This document shows, in pieces, positions 1-60,067 of a DNA stretch of 64,000 nt. The translations under genes and the position numbers were made by a program. Position 1 is the stretch's first letter; each line of letters starts with the position of its first letter. The notes beneath the pieces are model-generated. The model did no database searches, had not been told where the DNA came from, and worked only from the letters and a program-made list of their open reading frames with translations. Source of the stretch: Odontesthes bonariensis (Eukaryota; Chordata; Actinopteri; Atheriniformes; Atherinopsidae); assembly GCF_027942865.1 (NCBI RefSeq), contig NC_134524.1, positions 20,017,536-20,081,535 on the forward strand, read 5' to 3'.

Positions 1-205
1 AATAGTGTCGTATGGTTACTTTTATTATACAAGCCATCAATTTTGATGGCTTGTTAGTGTAACCGTTAAGCATAATGGCATTAATGCTATATATAGCGTA
101 CACTTAGCCAGATATTTTTTATTTTGTTTTGTTTTTTTTAAAGTAGCTAACTAGCTAAAGCCTTAAGTAGCTGAAATTAAGTTGTCTCGTGTCTCTGTCT
201 GCAGC

Positions 206-246
<41 letters not shown>

Positions 247-1202
247 CGATAGCTACCTACATTAACTGCAACATCTTTCCAGGCAGCAGATGGACTAATT
301 GTTTTTCCTGTTGATCAAATTATGTTTTTTTAGGCCAAGAACTCCACTAAAACTTTTTGGAACAGGATTGCTTAATAAAGGTAAGAATGGATGGGTAGAT
401 TTTATTTATGGTTTTGCTCTTTTTATGTGTCTGGTAGTGATGCGCGGGCCGGCCCGAGCCCGACGGGACCCTCGGGCTAGCCCGCGGGCCGGGTGGGGTC
501 GGGCCATTATTTTCTTAGAATCCACGGGTTGCGGTCGGGTCGGGTCAGATCACAGACATCATAATTACACCGTTAAAATCACACCTACGCACATCCGAGA
601 CAGCAGAATGCCAATCGACAGCGTCTGCACTTGTGTACTTGCTCTCTCTCCCCCTGCGCACAGCACCAATGCTGAACACCGCAGAATGCAAGCAAACAGG
701 CAGCCTACTCACGTGAAGCTCTCTCTCTCTAAATTCATATGACATGCACAGAGCTTGGGTGTCTGATGTGGCAACGAAAAGTGGAATTACAACCATAATC
801 GTCAGATGGATGTGCTGCGGTCAAGACTTTAGAGTAGCAACTGTATTGATGCAAGGGAAATTAAGGGTGAATGCGCGCAGCTTTTGGCAGCCTATGACAT
901 TACGCACCCCCTTGCGCGGCCGCAGACAGTTCATTTGTGTTTAATAGGCCTACATAAATAAATAGTTATTCATTTAATTTTTTTTTTTAAGCGGGTCGGG
1001 TGGGGTCGGGTTAAAAATCATTGTGTAATCTTTCGGGTCGGGCGGGCTGGGTTGGCTGCGTGATGGGTCGGGTTGGGGCGGGCCGTAAAAATCATCGGCC
1101 CGCGCAACACTAGTGTCTGGTGTATTGTAGGTCATAACCATTTTCACAACAGCCATCTTTTCTCCCTCCCATTTAGAAAGACCAATACTACACATCACCT
1201 CT
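1..1202. repeat. Left terminal inverted repeat, interrupted
   Basis: This arm matches the reverse complement of 5174-5688 over about 516 bases once the hAT MITE at 435-1112 and its extra target copy are removed. It contains a (CA)19 tract at 207-244 and a GTAAGA splice-donor-like site near 381. The match ends just after position 1202. Confidence 0.9.
435..1112. mobile_element. Non-autonomous hAT MITE nested in left end
   Basis: A 678-bp insertion bounded by 16-bp inverted ends (TAGTGATGCGCGGGCC on the left, TAGTGTTGCGCGGGCC read from the right, one mismatch) and an exact 8-bp target duplication GTGTCTGG at 427-434 and 1113-1120. An 8-bp duplication is the hAT signature. The interior has runs of GGGTCGGG at both ends (about 515-550 and 990-1085), which could form G-quadruplexes, and no transposase. 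The uninterrupted copy of this site in the right arm at about 5260 proves the boundaries. Confidence 0.93.
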
Positions 1203-1227
1203 TGTGCATGTCTTCATGGCAAGGCAA

Positions 1228-1288
1228 AGATTGAGACTTGAACTCACATGTCCCAGCTGAGAGACGTGTGCTACCACTGCACCACTGA
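1228..1288 (-). pseudogene. tRNA-like relic or SINE head
   Basis: On the minus strand this stretch has a D-arm-like GTGCAGTGGTAGCAC, an anticodon-arm-like GUCUC/GGGAC stem around a seven-base loop with AGC in the middle, and a T-arm-like TGAGTTCAAGTCTCA. No convincing acceptor stem pairs, so it is probably a decayed tRNA or the head of a tRNA-derived SINE. It lies just inside the left arm of the IS3EU-like element, downstream of the transposase stop and on the same strand. Confidence 0.45.
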
Positions 1289-2690
1289 ATTGAAGAGCCC
1301 CTTACGTGTCAGGTTGATCTGTATCATCATGTGTACACAGCTGATCAGAGAGGGATTTTGTTTCGACCTACATATTGTTATGATTCTACTTACCGAAAAC
1401 AGATAATTAAAAATCTTTATATAAAACAAATGTTCAGTAAAACCAGCTGTTTGTGCTGTCACCTTACGTTTATTCCCCTGCTGTATAATTACATATTTAT
1501 ATGGGAATTTTATATGAAACAATTTTACATTTTATATGAAACATATTCTGTTACATCATTGCAAGTTTTCCTCAAAATCACCATTTCCTGAAGATTATGT
1601 TTTAATGCTCTAATTATCATTTAATCATAATTTATGAATGTTTTTCTCATATGGACAGCTAGCAGCAGCAGGATCAGCAGCTTTGAGAGCTCCACAACAC
1701 ACATTCCATACATTATCTTTCTGATTTTATAGCAAATAAAATATGGTTTGGGGAAACATCACAATGTGGAAATGAAAGACCAACACTAGTTATCATTTTA
1801 GGGTTTAAAGATCCTTGGACGTATTCATTGTTGATCAAAAATGACCACTTCCAAATACTGTGCTATTATGAACAACAAAAATAAAACTACTAGCAATAAC
1901 ATAAACAATTTTTAAAAACATGTTTTCCAACTGCTTCACATTTCAAAAATTCACGTATAAATCAATTTAACAGACATGCAATAACATTTCATATTTAAAA
2001 TGTATTTTCAAACTTATTATACAGGGTATATGCAGGAATGCAAAAGTTTATTTCAATACCTTTTATAAGACTTTTTATAGACCTCAAAATACTTTTAAGA
2101 CCTCATTCGGTCGGTGGAGGAAGTGGTGTAGGACTTCTTTAACAGGAACAGGAAGCCGGGGAGGCAGAAGAGGACATTGATGAACTTGTGGAGGTGATCT
2201 GTAAGGTGGTGTAGTGATCCATCATGCAGCCCCAGGCGTGTTAGGGCTGCAGTGGGTTATACTGTTGCTCTTTATGCTGTTGAAAGGGGGAGGGGTCTAG
2301 CAGAACAAATAGTTTTATATGTTATAGTAATCAGGTTTTAGATTATTATATATAGGTTAAATTTTGGACATTGACAGAAAATACTTAAATGCCTGTAGTG
2401 TAACGTTTCATGGTGTATGTGAGTAACCATGTGTTAGTTACCTTCATTCAAAGCTGAGTGGTGTCTGTCCATTTACGCATGGGCTGTGGGTTTCAACATA
2501 CAAAGGTTGGGTTGGTTTTTGGAACGCATTTAGAAAAATATGTTTAAAATTTATTTCTAGGAATTTGTAAAAAGTAAAGACATTTTCTTAGTGCCGCTTT
2601 TTAATCATAACATTGAAATGATTAGCTGTGTATTTGTATTGTTTCAAAACATGTTTGCTATAATCATTAAGCACTTAATAGTGTGGAGCG

Positions 2691-5032
2691 TCACTCACTC
2701 ATTACAAATTGAAGAGCACGCAGGTATATATCCTGACCAAAGGATAAGGAGTCAGAGTTAGGATTCACTTCATGTTGCAGCAGAGCAAGATTCTCTGCAG
2801 ACAGGGGGGATGGAATGTAAGGAACAACAATCCCATGGTCAGTGTCTTCAGATACCTCCTCCTGATGGTCTATGTGCTGCAGCTGCATGGCCCAACAAAC
2901 AAATTAATGATAATAGACAAAGTGCTTAAGGGAAAAACTGCCATGCCAATCAAGTATTACATGCCCACCTCTGCATAATTTGGCTCAGGCACAGGTGCTT
3001 GGAGCATTCCAATGTTCCACATCTGTTGAGATGTAAGGTTTGCCTCTGTGCGGATCGGGTGGTTGTCCCAACTGTCTGTGAAATGCTGTAGATCTGACCG
3101 CAGACGAGGTACGAACACATATTGCACACAGAAGAGGTGGATCGCATTAGACAGATCAATGAAGCCCTCTTCTTCCAAGCTGTGTAGTGCGTTGTAGTAC
3201 TTTGATGTTACAGAATTCCAAACATCTCTCCATAAGCGTTCCACCCTGAAAAAAGGCAGACAGACAATGGTTAGAATAAGAAACACTGGTGCTGTCTGTT
3301 CATAAGTAAATGGCATTTATGGCTTTTCAGTGGTGCAGCCACTTTAATGCCGGTGTGTGTGTGTCCGCCAGTTCACACCAGGAAATTTCAATCAGGAATG
3401 GAGAGTATAGGAGAGAGCAAGCTGAAATCTGTGCCAAGGTTTGTGACCACTGTTCAATGTAAAAGATGACTGCCAACTATAACCAGCACACCATGGAGCT
3501 TGTTGAAAGCAGCCATCTTGACAGAAGAGGGTAAACCAACATCCGGTCAGACTGACACATGATTGACACAAATTGATAATGTAATTAATGCTTCCTGTTA
3601 GTCACATTAATACAATACAAGTTTACCTTCAGTTCTCTCAAAGGAGCTGCTATAAAAAATGGTCTATTGTTGCTAAGCAGCAGAGCACTGCTTACTCCTC
3701 CACTCTGAGAAGGATTATCAAAAAAGCAGATGTCAAGTGTAGATGCGACAAGTTCATTTAATTACCTCTGGTTATGGACACTTTTGCCTGCAATAAAGCT
3801 TCCACGGCCTGTTCCTCGGACAGTAAACATGCACCTGGCTATGTCGACATTTTCCACCCCTTGATCAGCTCTCACTCTGAAAGAAAAGCAAATGCTTTTC
3901 CCCCCCATATATGACATAACTTCATAATGTACAGCAGCACGTCGTTCTTTTATTTCTCCTGCAATTTGAATATATACCTTGAGGGCCATCCATTTCTCTG
4001 AACACCCTCCATGAAGAAGCCAAAAGCAGTTGCTGCTTTGTTGTTAGCTGCTGCGTCATAATACAAAATCTATGAAAGAGGTAGACGCATACCATGTATG
4101 TTTTGGAGTTGTTCATAAGGGTAAATATGTTGTGAATGAATAGAAAATAAAATATCTACCTTCCTGGAAAATCCATCTATCCCTCCAAAGATGACGATGT
4201 TATACCTTTAAAAAATGCATTTGAAAAAATATATAATTCATTTATGTATTACATGTATGTAGAACTCCCACATCATACAACACAGTAAATTGGTCAACAA
4301 GCAACGTCATACAAACGTAAAATAAGTTCTGCCAGACAAGACATTAATTTACCTTATCAGTTTATGATTTGTATCAACATGGACGAGAGACAGGGGAGCA
4401 GGGACAGAGTAGCTTCGTCGAGCAATGCAACGAAGCTGGATCATCCTGGCAATGATACCTGCACCATCTACACGCTGCAAAGACAGCCTCACTCTTTTCC
4501 ATTGAAGACGAAGGCCCATTGCTTGGAGACTTCCTTTGACCATTCTGTAGCCTGCATGCGGCATCCTTGCCTTAATAGCCCTGACTTTCTGGTCTAATTC
4601 TTCATCAGAAATTACAGAATAGCATGCCCTCACTGACATGTTGTGGTCCTTCATTCTTCTGTAAAGGGTTGACCGTGAAATGCCATGCATTTCTACTAAA
4701 TGAACTAGAGGTAAAGAGGTATCCAGCAACGTCTGTAGTGTGTCACGACTCATTTGTAGTTCTGGCCGTCCTACATTCCCACTCCAACAAGTGGTGGCTA
4801 CATCATTAAATAGTGGAGGAACAGGATTCTGTGACAGATGTGAACTGAGCACTACAGTCAACTGTTGCAGACCATCAGCCAGCTCTGCGGGAATATCCAT
4901 GTATTGTGTGCCAGCTTGAATAAACTGCAACTCTTGAGTGCACACAAACAGGAGGTACTCAAAATCAATGGGTACTCTATTGATGACAGAAACCAACCTA
5001 TCCCTTAACCTCAGTAAGAGCTGTTGTGCCAT
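2691..5032 (-). CDS. IS3EU-like DDE transposase, six exons
   Basis: Predicted exons, in order: 5032-4353, 4205-4160, 4069-3978, 3876-3766, 3245-2969, 2882-2691. All have GT-AG borders and compatible phases and give 465 residues with no internal stop. An N-terminal helical region precedes a helix-turn-helix-like stretch ([15 protein letters not shown], about residue 120) and an IS3-type segment (GYRMVKGSL). An rve/integrase fold follows, with Asp in HVDTNHKL, Asp in RADQGVEN and Glu in VERLWRDVW; 34 residues separate the last two, close to the classic spacing. A splice acceptor sits just upstream of the ATG, so a noncoding first exon is likely, possibly in the right terminal repeat. It should cut and join the element's own ends. 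All three acidic residues are present, so it may be active. A domesticated role cannot be excluded, but the matched terminal repeats argue for a mobile element. Confidence 0.82.
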
Positions 5033-5173
5033 CGGATGCCTGCAAATTAAAATTTAGCATTATAAGAGGAGCAATTTTGAAATTCATGTATAAGTGTACT
5101 TGTATGAGATAGTCAGTGCATTACCTGCAATAGATAATGGGGAGCACAACCCCAAAATGGAGAATCAGCAGCA

Positions 5174-5442
5174 GAGGTGATGTGTAGTATTGGTCTTTCT
5201 AAATGGGAGGGAGAAAAGATGGCTGTTGTGAAAATGGTTATGACCTACAATACACCAGACACATAAAAAGAGCAAAACCATAAATAAAATCTACCCATCC
5301 ATTCTTACCTTTATTAAGCAATCCTGTTCCAAAAAGTTTTAGTGGAGTTCTTGGCCTAAAAAAACATAATTTGATCAACAGGAAAAACAATTAGTCCATC
5401 TGCTGCCTGGAAAGATGTTGCAGTTAATGTAGGTAGCTATCG

Positions 5443-5483
<41 letters not shown>

Positions 5484-5688
5484 GCTGCAGACAGAGACAC
5501 GAGACAACTTAATTTCAGCTACTTAAGGCTTTAGCTAGTTAGCTACTTTAAAAAAAACAAAACAAAATAAAAAATATCTGGCTAAGTGTACGCTATATAT
5601 AGCATTAATGCCATTATGCTTAACGGTTACACTAACAAGCCATCAAAATTGATGGCTTGTATAATAAAAGTAACCATACGACACTATT
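5174..5688. repeat. Right terminal inverted repeat, uninterrupted
   Basis: This is the inverted copy of the left arm and carries the pre-insertion form of the hAT target (GTGTCTGG once, on the minus strand near 5260). It has a (GT)19 tract at 5445-5482, exactly as long as the (CA)19 on the left. On the minus strand it holds a GTAAGA donor near 5308, so this arm may supply the promoter and a noncoding first exon for the transposase, whose acceptor lies at about 5040. Confidence 0.9.
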
Positions 5689-6846
5689 GAGCAGTTATAA
5701 TTGAGAGTGCAGCAATACCTGTATCGATATCAATACTGCTTATCAATACTTCAAATAATTTGATGCAAAAAATAAAGTATCACATAAAGAAATTAATGTG
5801 TCATGCCTACAGAGCACAGCACCTAGAGACACCAAAACTTAGGCCAAGCCAGGACCAGAGTCCTCCATTATCAATCAGCATTGCAATAAAATAGAAAAAT
5901 ACAACTTCAGACAACTTTCACTCACACACCTTCTAATAAAGCATCTTACATAAACATGTCAATAAATCAACACTGAATAAGGCAAGACTTGTAATGGGTT
6001 GACAGGACAATACTATATGATATTAGAAATCTAAATAAATGAATACTAATTAAACAAACCATCTTGTCTTCTTTTCCAAGGATTTTCATTAAACTAAGAG
6101 CTTTTGTGTCTCAACTGAATGCCAAATTTACCAGAAGGATCATTATTGGCACAATACTTTAAGCTAGTAACTACTTGTACACTATGTCAGACAATAAGCA
6201 TCACTTCATTGAACTGCCAGTTTTCCATGTGGAGTTGTGCGGGACATTAGGCTACTTATAAATAATGCCTGACATAGCTAGTTTGCACACCGAGCAACGG
6301 AATATATATTCATGTTACCGGTGGTATGCAACATTATTTTCCGTACGGGACGGCATATGTAAGCCCCGCTCTCAAAATAACAGCATCTGCCTCTGTGTCT
6401 GCGAGCATTTGACTGTGATGGTGGGGAGACCACTACCCGTGAGCGAGAGAGAGAGCGGGACGGTCAAATAGCTGTAATCCTGTGGGCTGTGTGAGAAGAT
6501 AGACTCAGGCTCTGCATGACCTGTTGCTGCTAAACAGGCAGCGCTGTGGGCAACAGTTGGCCTGTGGACTGTTGTTTGACCACTAATGACGTTACGTATT
6601 ATAACACAATATAGCACTAGCACATAGCAAGCCTCTGTAACGTTACTTAAGTGAAATAAACAATTCAATTAGCCGTTAGCGCACCCTGCTAGCCTGCCTG
6701 ACAATATGAGGCGTCAGATATCTAACACAATCACACAAATTAGTCAACGTGAGCTAAGTTAGCAAGCTGTATGTTTAATCGAAATATCAAACAGAGTAGG
6801 CTAATAACGTGACACCAATCATTTTAATACGGTTTTATCTACTTAC
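5689..6846. other. Intergenic, no feature recognised
   Basis: AT-rich single-copy-looking DNA follows the right end of the IS3EU-like element. I see no convincing exon. The stretch from about 6250 to 6560 is richer in CpG than its surroundings and lies downstream, in the minus-strand sense, of the candidate first exon at 6847-6904. Confidence 0.5.
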
Positions 6847-6904
6847 CAACAACTCCACCACTGCCTGACCACTGCTTCCTGGCTCGCTGGCGAGTGGCGA
6901 CCAT
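6847..6904 (-). CDS. Possible first coding exon of an off-window gene
   Basis: On the minus strand an ATG at 6904 opens a short frame (MVATRQRARKQWSGSGGVV) that runs straight into a consensus donor GTAAGT at 6846. A CCAAT box lies upstream at about 6963. The rest of the gene would have to continue leftwards, past the IS3EU-like insertion and out of the window. I do not recognise the peptide. The evidence is only a start codon, a basic N-terminus and a strong donor; it could be chance. Confidence 0.3.
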
Positions 6905-6999
6905 GACTTGCTTGTCAGAAAGACGTCGTTGGTGTAGACACTTGTCACTCAAACATGTCTGACCAATGGGGAAGCACCCGCCCACTGCGGTACGTTTGT

Positions 7000-7700
7000 G
7001 TCAAAATGATTAAAAAAAAAAACGACTTCAAAACTTTTTTCACTTCATTCAAAGAAAAAAGAAAGTTCAATCAAAAAAAAAAACACTTCAAATGATTTTT
7101 TTTTTTTGCATTTAAACAGTTTTTTCTTTGATTGAAAATATTTTTTTTTGATTGAAAATGTTTTTTTTTTGATTGAAGCAACTTTTTTGGGATTGAATAA
7201 TTAAGACACAAATGTCCTACCCATAACATGGTCCAAACACAAAAAAGATTACTTCAATCAAAGAAAACATTTTCAATCAAAAAAAAAGTGTTCAAGTGCA
7301 ATTTTTCGAGTCTCAAATATTTTTTTGCATTCAAAAACATTTTTTCTATGATTGAAAAGGTTTATTTTTTGATTGAAGTGATTTTTTTATTGAAAATATT
7401 TTTTGTTTGTTTGAAGCAACTTCTTTTTTGATTGAATTATAAAGACACAAATGTCCTACCCATAATATGGCCCAAACACAAAACAACAATACTTCAATCA
7501 AAAAAGTTGCTTCAAACAAAAAACCTTCACTTCTATCAAAAAAAACATTTTCAAGCAAAAAAAAATAGTGTTCAAATGCATTTTTTTGAGTCTCAAATAT
7601 ATTTTTGCATTCAAACACTTTTTTTCTTTGATTGAAACGGGTTTTTTTTATTGAAAATATATTTTTTGATTGAAGCAACCTTTTTTTTGATTGAATAATA
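7000..7700. repeat. AT-rich tandem repeat with internal inverted motifs
   Basis: About three units of roughly 240-260 bp. The landmark ACACAAATGTCCTACCCATA recurs near 7205 and 7444, and a diverged third copy starts near 7705. Within each unit TTTTTTGATTGAA and its complement TTCAATCAAAAAA alternate, so either strand can fold into many small hairpins. The apparent lysine/phenylalanine-rich reading frames here are by-products of the base composition. Confidence 0.7.
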
Positions 7701-7714
7701 AAGAAACAAATCTA

Positions 7715-8092
7715 CCTCCATAGTTTCAGCCCCTCCCCTCAGGCAGGCAACTGAGGAGCATACAGAGCCAGACCACCAGGCTCAGAAACAGTTTCTTCCC
7801 TGAAGCTGTCAGACTGCTGAACTCGAGCCTTACTCAGTAGACTCCCACCCCTCTCTCATGTCATCCTGTCTCTCAATATTTCATTCATTCTCATAGGTGC
7901 AATCTCCTGCTCTCACGCGTGTACTAAACTGTTTATATTTTTGCTCTTGCTGTTTATTTCTTTTTTTTTCCTCTTGTGTTATACACTTGTTTATTAGGCT
8001 TCTTAACCCAGGACCTGAGTCCTAATTTCATACCATAAACATGTACATGTGAGGCGGTATGACAATAAACCTTCCTTGAATCCTTGAATATT
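7715..8092 (+). mobile_element. 3' end of a CR1/Rex1-like LINE
   Basis: The stretch from CATACAGAGCCAGACCACCA (7759) through the region around GCTGTCAGACTGCTGAACTC (7805) resembles the end of the reverse-transcriptase frame and 3' UTR common in fish CR1/Rex1-type LINEs. It finishes in ATGACAATAAA followed by CCTTGAATCCTTGAAT at about 8060-8090, the short tail repeat these elements use. It is 5'-truncated and ends inside a decayed Ig exon. The family name is from memory. Confidence 0.6.
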
Positions 8093-58826: not shown

Positions 58827-59834
58827 CTAACTGTATGAGACATAATCCCTAAAATGAGCAGGTTGTCTCAGGAGCCTTCCTGACCGGGAAACTTTATGTT
58901 GTGCGTCCCCTGAGTCAGGGTGTTGACCCACATCCAAAGCCACTGTAGCAAGTGACTCTTGTGGCTCTCCATTGAACTCAGGCAACGTAGTGGAAAGAGC
59001 AGAAGGCCTCGGCAGCGTGTAAGGTTTCAGTCTGTTATAGTGTACTACTTTCCCACTTCCCGCACAGCTGGAAGGATCCCCAATGTGATAGGTGAGTCCT
59101 CGCTCCCCCTGTGTGTCTAACACTGCCATGACCCTGTAAGGGCCCTTCCAATGAGGAGCCAGTTTCAATCGATCCTCTGTAGGATCATGCAGCCAAACAA
59201 AATCCCCCACAGTGTATGGCCGATGACGAGCCACGCCATCATGGTAAAGTTTTTGTCTCTCATGAGCATCTGCAGAACCCAGCCTGGCTCCACCAAAAGC
59301 AGCATCCAATCTGCCCATGAGTGATGTCACAAAGTCATCATAGCCACAAGAAGAGTAGGAGTTGGCCCTCTGAGACAACAATAAAACATCCACAGGAATA
59401 CGGGCCTCACGTCCATGTGTCAGAAAATATGGGGAGTAATTGGTGCAGGCATGAACAGATGTATTGTAGGCAAAAGCCACATGCTTAACATATCCATCCC
59501 ACTCCCCTCCATAAGTCTGCAATAACTTGGCCAGCTGGTCTATCAGTGTTCTGTTAAAGCGTTCCACCATCCCATCTGACTTCGGATTATAGGGAGTGGT
59601 GCGTGTTTTTTTTATTCCCAAAAGCTCACAGAGTCTTTGAACAATCTCAGCTTCAAACTGCCGACCCTGATCACTGTGAACAGTCTCTGGAACTCCATGC
59701 ACAAGAACATAGTCCTCAAATAGGCAACCTGCAACCGATTGGGCTGTTTGGTTGGGAAGAGCATATAAATTCACAAATTTGGTGAAGTAGTCTTCCACCA
59801 CCAACACATATCGGTATCCCTCCGCTGCCACCAA
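58827..59834 (-). CDS. Ty3/gypsy-type integrase, 5'-truncated
   Basis: An open frame of 335 codons with no ATG at its 5' end; it opens at the LTR junction. The rve core is intact: Asp in VLVVEDYFTKF, Asp in VHSDQGRQFE and Glu in DGMVERFNRTL. A C-terminal GPY/F-type module follows (HWKGPYRVM, VVHYNRLKPY). The N-terminal HHCC zinc-binding domain and all upstream pol parts are missing. The lack of stops over 1 kb indicates that the lineage was recently under coding constraint. This copy cannot make a complete polyprotein. Confidence 0.88.
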   Translation of the reverse strand: MVAAEGYRYVLVVEDYFTKFVNLYALPNQTAQSVAGCLFEDYVLVHGVPETVHSDQGRQFEAEIVQRLCELLGIKKTRTTPYNPKSDGMVERFNRTLIDQLAKLLQTYGGEWDGYVKHVAFAYNTSVHACTNYSPYFLTHGREARIPVDVLLLSQRANSYSSCGYDDFVTSLMGRLDAAFGGARLGSADAHERQKLYHDGVARHRPYTVGDFVWLHDPTEDRLKLAPHWKGPYRVMAVLDTQGERGLTYHIGDPSSCAGSGKVVHYNRLKPYTLPRPSALSTTLPEFNGEPQESLATVALDVGQHPDSGDAQHKVSRSGRLLRQPAHFRDYVSYS

Positions 59835-60067
59835 TGTAACCGAGGGTCTTCTTCTTGTTATATTGAGGTATATAAAAGAACCACATGTAGCGTTCTCACA
59901 TTCGCTGGCTCAAAACGGCAGCAGCACTTTATTCACACCTTCAGTTACAGGTTAACCCCGGAACCATTTCCTGTCTTGTGTACAAAATAAAAGCTCTTCA
60001 CATTAATACCGGATGTTACAAACATGCTCAAACATCCCTCTATCCAGGGCTCATAAAAATAGCTTAC
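59835..60067. repeat. LTR, right copy (5' LTR for the minus-strand element)
   Basis: 233 bp matching 58254-58486. It lacks the final A of the TG...CA form and runs directly into the 96-bp duplicate at 60068. Confidence 0.9.

Follow-up and report, generated by a model that had tools for sequence, protein, structure and literature searches.

The stretch analyzed here (the window, 64,000 nucleotides in all) opens inside a transposon, and the copy it carries is very probably a 9,756-bp internally deleted member of a young IS3EU-type family in a teleost-like genome; the full 17.0-kb element combines terminal repeats of ∼2.55 kb with two convergent genes, one for a DDE transposase and one for a HECT-like ligase.

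True extent of the window copy

The preliminary description took positions 1 to 5688 for the element and assigned it 516-bp inverted ends. The flanking genome sequence shows instead that position 1 is merely the window edge and that the element spans C24:20015502-20025257, starting 2,034 bp before the window and ending at window position 7722. Its outermost ends are TATGGAGG..CCTCCATA, of the TATGG..CCATA form, and it is flanked by GTTTCA, a 6-bp target site duplication (TSD). The 516-bp ends, which are perfectly identical within the window (434 + 82 bp), are the inner part of the ∼2.55-kb terminal repeats, which the window edge cuts. The boundary features are as follows.

C24:20015502-20017535 (outside the window, read in flanking sequence): left terminal inverted repeat, outer 2,034 bp
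1..434, plus strand: left terminal inverted repeat, inner part; 100% complementary to 5255-5688
1121..1202, plus strand: left inverted repeat, innermost part; perfect match to the right arm when reverse-complemented
5173..7722, minus strand: right terminal inverted repeat, 2,550 bp
7693..7722, minus strand: right terminus, 30-bp sequence
7723..7728, plus strand: target site duplication GTTTCA, 6 bp; partner directly before C24:20015502, outside the window

A complete, autonomous and recently inserted 5.7-kb IS3EU element with 516-bp ends would fit the open transposase, the perfect inner repeats and an internal TATGG..CCATA at 11/5678, but this reading is already refuted by the flanking sequence and we give it almost no credence. 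The arms continue outward for ∼2,044 bp past the TATGG at 11/5678, as they do in all five transposase-bearing copies (the C7 left arm being interrupted), and the termini that carry a TSD are those at 7722 and C24:20015502. Positions 11/5678 were rejected as termini since the sequences outside them are inverted rather than direct repeats and form no TSD. Two mid-size copies, each read from end to end, also contain positions 6473-7722 of the right repeat. On C2, the GTTTCA insertion junction is crossed without change of length by two LINE-like paralogues, which represent related unoccupied sites; a third such site, on C1, has 8 extra bases at the junction.

Internal deletion and a nested insert

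The full element is found at four other places in the genome, and these long copies hold ∼7.9 kb more than the window copy. Judged by this comparison, the window copy is an internally deleted form of the 17-kb element from which the predicted HECT-like gene has been removed, and not the whole autonomous element it was thought to be.

1225..1226: internal deletion of ∼7.9 kb, junction with 2-bp microhomology (GC); compared with the C8 copy

Truncation of the C7 left arm was also considered and proved wrong, as its outer end lies ∼15 kb further out with a matching TSD.

The left arm of the window copy is split by a second transposon, a feature absent from the preliminary description.

435..1112: nested non-autonomous hAT-like insert, 678 bp, with TAGTG..CACTA ends
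427..434, plus strand: 8-bp target duplication GTGTCTGG of the insert; second copy at 1113-1120

Among the five transposase-bearing copies (the other four compared over their fetched stretches), only the window copy carries this insert, which belongs to a separate young family of its own (genome search, best 40 of 56 candidates).

Homogenization of the arms

A dinucleotide tract of 19 units on each side, as reported earlier, was counted in both arms of the window copy.

207..244, plus strand: AC tract, 19 units, left arm; mirror GT tract near 5445-5482

Left and right tract lengths are equal in only two of the five transposase-bearing copies. Four private substitutions are common to both arms of the window copy and absent elsewhere among the compared copies; in this cross-copy comparison the C24 left arm comprised 2,460 bases, and its inner part was compared separately with the right arm. 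Together, the shared private substitutions and the rarity of equal tracts indicate that the window-copy arms were homogenized. Cut-and-paste transposition leaves the arms unregenerated, so identity between them does not date the insertion; we rejected any insertion age derived from equal arms or CA tracts. These sequence comparisons show that the equal ends and equal tracts reflect homogenization between arms, not insertion age. The arms of C13 differ by 4 substitutions, as do those of C16, which equals the level between copies, so homogenization is not seen in these two.

The transposase gene

The predicted transposase has 465 amino acids and lies on the minus strand, where its six coding exons read open and are joined, at the chosen sites, across introns that follow the GT-AG rule.

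4353..5032, minus strand: coding exon 1, with a weakly HTH-like stretch and catalytic D220; the acceptor lies directly upstream of 5039
4160..4205, minus strand: coding exon 2
3978..4069, minus strand: coding exon 3
3766..3876, minus strand: coding exon 4; catalytic D277
2969..3245, minus strand: coding exon 5; catalytic E312
2691..2882, minus strand: coding exon 6; includes the stop codon
5309..5429, minus strand: putative non-coding 5′ exon within the right repeat; donor GTAAG at 5308; a prediction with an arbitrary start

The six open exons with three acidic catalytic residues noted previously were recovered: the triad is D220, D277 and E312 (34 residues separating the last two), and the spliced protein scored 235.7 bits against Pfam PF24764 (cut-off 26). 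NCBIfam models for IS3 (4.7e-8) and IS481 (2.4e-7) matched below their curated cut-offs. The frame is open in all five copies that have the gene, and in C7, C13 and C16 it is full-length without frame lesion; the C8 gene has lost 9 nt of exon 5 in frame. At positions 246 and 382 the window transposase departs from every one of the four long copies, which there agree with a diverged relative. "Apparently intact" therefore describes the transposase frame, and not a copy that has an internal deletion, a nested insert and these two deviations. Comparison with one diverged relative (pN 0.25 / pS 0.78) indicates purifying selection, which is shown for the lineage and not for these copies since synonymous sites are saturated.

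A single-sequence PDB look-up with the transposase gave no match, nor did a search of phages. Viral contigs held no match to the spliced transposase, to a degenerate core motif or to an exact 30-bp inner-arm pattern, and plasmids yielded one weak match (Massilia, 25%, E 7e-3). A GTDB scan returned four loci, three of which encode IS3EU-like transposases (sponge-symbiont bin, contigs of 3.4-4.2 kb) and have no match to the partner protein described below; the fourth matched neither protein.

A HECT-like partner gene

The second gene on the long copies has 14 exons, is convergent to the transposase and has a predicted HECT-like E3 ubiquitin ligase product; its frame is open in three of the four. 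In a PDB profile search with this protein, 35 of 38 matches at E ≤ 10 were HECT E3s (best E 0.0018), and the Pfam HECT model matched at E 2e-4 to 0.05, below cut-off. A profile of the C-lobe only found no HECT chain in PDB, and a single-sequence PDB look-up gave one weak zinc-finger match. A Cys near the C terminus, in keeping with the catalytic residue of HECT ligases, is invariant in six aligned C-terminal sequences (and by eye in four more) and stands opposite the Rsp5 cysteine in a second alignment, which scores only −2.3 bits. Against one diverged relative, pN was 0.32 and pS 0.71, indicating purifying selection, here too for the lineage and not for these copies, with synonymous sites saturated.

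A genome search for the partner gene, in which the best 65 of 239 candidates were scored so that counts are lower bounds, gave 23 clusters. A transposase lies within 15 kb in 12 of these, all 12 convergent (about 0.055 expected): four belong to the window element's family and eight are other diverged loci of the same genome. For the remaining 11, the best-scored candidates include no transposase within 15 kb. A comparison of two pieces of the C15 relative (12 kb total) revealed no inverted repeat between them.

These loci bear on whether a short, transposase-only form was ancestral and the 17-kb form acquired the HECT-like gene later. The window copy does diverge more than the other four (0.23-0.25% vs 0.05-0.08%), but the convergent pair recurs at the eight diverged loci and the junction microhomology is just 2 bp, as in deletions; we regard such an order of events as quite improbable.

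A young, multicopy family

The genome-wide copy search with comparison of divergence that had been proposed at the outset identified 40 complete copies marked by their termini, 35 of them derivatives of 1.4-8.2 kb. The terminal 30-mers are identical in 81 of the 82 ends found genome-wide, and a reversed-pattern control gave 0 sites genome-wide. The transposase half differs by 0.05-0.25% among the copies that have it; the partner-gene half was compared over 5,527 bases in four copies. The 27 copies in the 5.3-8.2 kb range were represented by two complete sequences and one partial sequence, and we infer from the transposase search (best 91 of 485 candidates scored, counts being lower bounds) that the others lack a transposase. 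Another genome search scored the best 40 of 76 candidates, and its counts are likewise lower bounds.

Exact 6-bp duplications flank 28 of the 31 copies checked, the window copy included, and their sequences differ between copies; one of the 28 lies within a GTA microsatellite, where the match extends over 9 bases. Three copies, at C13:27507267, C16:38058511 and C13:29398594, have no matching flanks; two of them are full-length. Those three, together with the very high identity between copies, are what recent segmental or assembly duplication would account for; the diverse TSDs strongly oppose it, as do the related unoccupied sites and the end of similarity among the five transposase-bearing copies at one and the same terminal base, and we consider it highly unlikely that the copies arose other than by transposition.

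Given the small differences in the transposase half and the near-uniform termini, the family is young and probably still mobile. "Very young" in the preliminary description is borne out by these between-copy measures, and not by arm identity. The family could be young and yet recently dead, with every transposase copy impaired or silenced, as the two deviating positions of the window copy and the exon 5 deletion of C8 might suggest; with frames open in five of five, three full-length genes free of lesions and such uniform termini, we think this less likely than not.

Relation to known elements

The assignment as IS3EU-like held. According to the available text of PMC10045372, IS3EU/GingerRoot elements are recognized by an IS3/IS481-like DDE core, TA..TA termini, 6-bp TSDs, a first catalytic D at residues 100-300 and the lack of an HHCC motif. 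The window family shares all of these: the IS3-type DDE core, 6-bp TSDs, TA..TA ends (TATGGAGG..CCTCCATA), a first D at residue 220 from the N terminus and, with the protein read by eye, no HHCC motif and no C-x2-C before D220. It departs from them in its composite 17-kb structure, which has inverted repeats of ∼2.55 kb and a partner gene that is HECT-like. The same text dates the Repbase listing of IS3EU to 2013, counts 17 autonomous families as of May 2022 and reports no functional test of IS3EU. PMC12730594 describes fungal IS3EU elements with TAYGG..CCRTA termini and 6-bp TSDs, which resemble the window family in these features and in carrying accessory genes; there the genes are a TET/JBP dioxygenase and an alpha-kinase, whereas here, in a vertebrate, the gene is for a HECT-like E3 ligase.

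Within the openly licensed PMC literature (Repbase sequences lying outside the search), we found no description of such a 17-kb HECT-carrying composite, no paper treating IS3EU together with HECT, none on a HECT passenger gene of a transposable element in fish and, among the titles and abstract starts listed in broader searches, none on this pairing. Tol2, a hAT element, and ZB are fish cut-and-paste elements like the window family. The excerpts of PMC4818426 and PMC7913693 describe both as active vertebrate DNA transposons and ZB as Tc1/mariner; they belong to other superfamilies than the window family, whose activity is only predicted.

Proposed mechanism and significance

In the mechanism we propose, the transposase would bind the TATGG ends common to all copies, cut and paste the element with 6-bp staggered target cuts and act in trans on shorter copies bearing the same ends. 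The repeats may supply each of the two genes with its own copy of the promoter and 5′ exon, and conversion or palindrome-primed repair could homogenize the arms. The ligase might alter a host or transposition factor to the element's benefit. It is possible, and we put it forward tentatively, that this is a currently active vertebrate IS3EU system in which the HECT-like ligase is a long-conserved partner of the transposase, for example by eliminating a host factor for silencing or repair, and the 35 shorter copies are live trans substrates.

Because several open transposases occur in one genome together with natural short copies (1.4-8.2 kb) and clean 6-bp duplications, cis and trans requirements are directly testable, and the window family offers a test case for whether animal transposons of an almost unstudied class still work. 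The pairing with a HECT-like gene raises the further question of whether a transposon may use a ubiquitin ligase of its own against its host.

Borders and structure of the window copy

As the preliminary description had it, the IS3EU-type transposon copy at the start of the window carries an open transposase gene of six exons with three acidic catalytic residues (465 amino acids; D220, D277, E312). Two features of this copy are as follows.

5032-4353, 4205-4160, 4069-3978, 3876-3766, 3245-2969, 2882-2691, minus strand: transposase, six coding exons, GT-AG introns
435-1112: hAT-like insert of 678 bp in the left arm, flanked by 8-bp repeats

A match to Pfam PF24764 crosses the splice joints and covers 2-187 of 194, which supports the six-exon model; the nearest NCBIfam families are IS3 and IS481, both under their cut-offs. 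Among the matches listed in a search of the genome (945 Mb, 187 contigs), close transposase matches occurred at five places only, a lower bound, and the frame is open in all five, with a 9-nt in-frame deletion in the copy on contig C8. The window copy (on C24) encodes Y246 and S382, where the four other copies and a relative at C15:39.82-39.83 Mb have L and P.

The inverted ends were also correctly described as identical (434 + 82 bases without difference in the window), each arm holding an AC tract of 19 units. The proposed borders of 1 and 5688 did not hold, as position 1 is a mere window edge and the arms continue outward in all five places. When the inner 435 bp of the arm was used as a genome query, it returned 10 matches, two at each of the five places, and outside the proposed borders the same inverted sequence is present at every one. 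The terminal repeats extend ∼2,044 bp further, reaching TATGGAGGTAG..CTACCTCCATA, where similarity among copies ends; the left arm of the C7 copy is interrupted after 805 bp. Because the arms reach these termini and the flanks there are GTTTCA/GTTTCA, we place the window copy at C24:20015502-20025257 (9,756 bp; right end at window 7722). The definition of IS3EU elements rests on TA..TA termini and, as a rule, target site duplications of 6 bp (PMC10045372), and fungal members are described as having TAYGG..CCRTA ends and TET/JBP and alpha-kinase genes aboard (PMC12730594). Within the repeats there is another TATGG..CCATA (window 11 and 5678), set 2,044 bp inward of the true termini; it looks like a fossil terminus, and the terminal repeat may be composite.

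By eye, the insertion target resembles the 3' end of a LINE. When the joined flanks were used as a query, related sequences on C2 (15729999, 41835703) spanned the junction with length unchanged, and a relative on C1 (5162275) spanned it with 8 extra bases. Elsewhere in the window (C24:20017536-20081535), other open frames were noted by eye, some teleost-like (C-type lectin, macrodomain, kelch type) and one at 58827-59909 resembling a gypsy-type retroelement integrase.

The same element occurs with ∼7.9 kb of extra sequence at four other places (C8, C7, C13 and C16), and the window copy is a deleted form of this longer element. At its junction (∼1225/1226), two sites of the long form are joined whose only shared bases, as read in C8, are GC. 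The hAT-like insert is present in the window copy only, among the five transposase-bearing copies. Among the best 40 of 56 candidates for this insert, most were 93-100% identical and near full length, and six of the matches listed (including the window's) were 100% identical after rounding over 1-678; this non-autonomous insert is therefore itself young and represents another recently mobile family.

A HECT-like partner gene in the long copies

The extra sequence of the long copies contains a second gene, convergent to the transposase. In C8 it has 14 exons and a single 685-residue frame (start codon provisional) with no internal stops; the frame is also open in C7 and C16 and has one premature stop in C13. 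Pfam HECT matches were weak and under cut-off. When seven relatives, mostly partial, were combined into a profile, HECT E3 ligases made up 35 of the 38 PDB sequences retrieved at E ≤ 10 (best E 0.0018); a profile restricted to the C-terminal lobe retrieved no HECT E3 ligase from PDB. A C-terminal cysteine is invariant in all six aligned sequences, and we call the predicted product HECT-like.

Relatives of the partner gene formed 23 clusters among the matches listed. At 12 of them a relative of the transposase lies no more than 15 kb away, against ∼0.055 expected by chance, and the two genes are convergent in all 12 (four of the window element's own family, eight of others); at the remaining 11, no transposase was found within 15 kb among the matches listed. 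Compared with the C15 relative, each gene differs far less at nonsynonymous than at synonymous sites (0.25 and 0.78 over 342 codons of the transposase; 0.32 and 0.71 over 470 codons of the partner), with synonymous sites saturated or nearly so. We found no description of IS3EU paired with HECT in the literature searched, Repbase itself being outside the search.

More distant transposases were also seen. At least 27 intronless IS3EU-like matches (33-34% identity) spread across 2.7 Mb at C3:33183308-35890943, many as +/- pairs ∼50 kb apart and most listed with in-frame stops, as if they were arrayed giant inverted-repeat units. When one C3 locus was compared on a single strand with others lacking introns, six out of 16 (C3, C67, C20) proved >99% identical to it over 2.7-4.1 kb. 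Three short contigs of a Cycloclasticus sponge-symbiont bin (L001, L002, L003) encode IS3EU-like transposases at 37-45% identity, most likely sponge contamination.

Age of the copies and homogenization of arms in two of them

Over the transposase half (∼3.9 kb), 9-10 substitutions (0.23-0.25%) separate the window copy from the other four, which differ among themselves by 2-3 (0.05-0.08%); in the partner-gene half, the long copies are 0.04-0.16% apart. If 2e-9 to 1e-8 substitutions are assumed per site and year, 0.05-0.25% corresponds roughly to 0.03-0.6 million years. Low basal IS3EU activity is reported for killifish genomes (PMC12763893).

Equal tracts had been read as a sign of recent insertion or of gene conversion between the ends. 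Private substitutions are common to both arms in the window copy (four) and in C7 (two), and AC tract units per arm pair are 19/19 in C24, 21/21 in C7, 18/24 in C8, 30/21 in C13 and 32/15 in C16. Arm identity is therefore not usable as a clock, and the dating of the insertion by it falls; gene conversion is the better alternative, and, judging from these shared changes and tract lengths, the arms of C24 and C7 were homogenized, through conversion or some comparable process. In C13, and again in C16, four substitutions separate one arm from the other, as many as between arms of different copies, which argues against homogenization as a general rule.

Family census and target duplications

Copies sharing near-identical ends are numerous, with the real termini outside 1..5688. 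The terminal 30-mer, allowing ≤3 mismatches, was found at 82 sites genome-wide (81 exact, one with one mismatch); a reversed control pattern gave none. Paired by position, these ends make 40 elements and two lone ends: eight of 1.39-1.90 kb, 27 of 5.26-8.18 kb, the window copy, three of ∼17.0 kb, and the C7 element of 31.8 kb, enlarged by ∼14.8 kb of other sequence within its left arm. The family is thus mostly short copies. The extra C7 sequence (approximately C7:24351351-24366146) starts close to the point (window 6473-6483) at which mid-size copies, too, part from the long element.

Among the 27 mid-size copies, the two read whole are long fold-back structures that have the outer ∼1,250 bp (window 6473-7722) in common and no other similarity to window 1-7722 in this comparison; in a third, of which one end was read, the common stretch is window 6269-7722. 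With window 5700-6900 as query, 29 further arms matched from ∼6473 outward only, at 100% after rounding (best 40 of 76). In the eight short copies, 0.43-0.93 kb of each end is retained; assuming that they were mobilized in their current form, 430 bp at one end seems to suffice.

Both flanks were read for 31 of the 40 elements, and an exact 6-bp repeat was present in 28 of these, in one case within a GTA microsatellite. The complete elements at C13:29398594, C13:27507267 and C16:38058511 lack such a duplication; candidate causes are rearrangement, loss of target sequence or an assembly error.

Proposed mechanism

The observed part of the mechanism consists of structure, termini, target duplications, open frames and low divergence. 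By analogy with established DDE transposition, the transposase would bind the ends, excise the element and integrate it with a 6-bp stagger. Because close transposase matches were listed at five places only, as lower bounds, we infer that it acts in trans on the short copies. From the anatomy of the element, a donor site in each repeat (5308 in the window) could supply the same 5' exon to both genes. More speculatively, the ligase may serve as a counter-defence or transposition factor.
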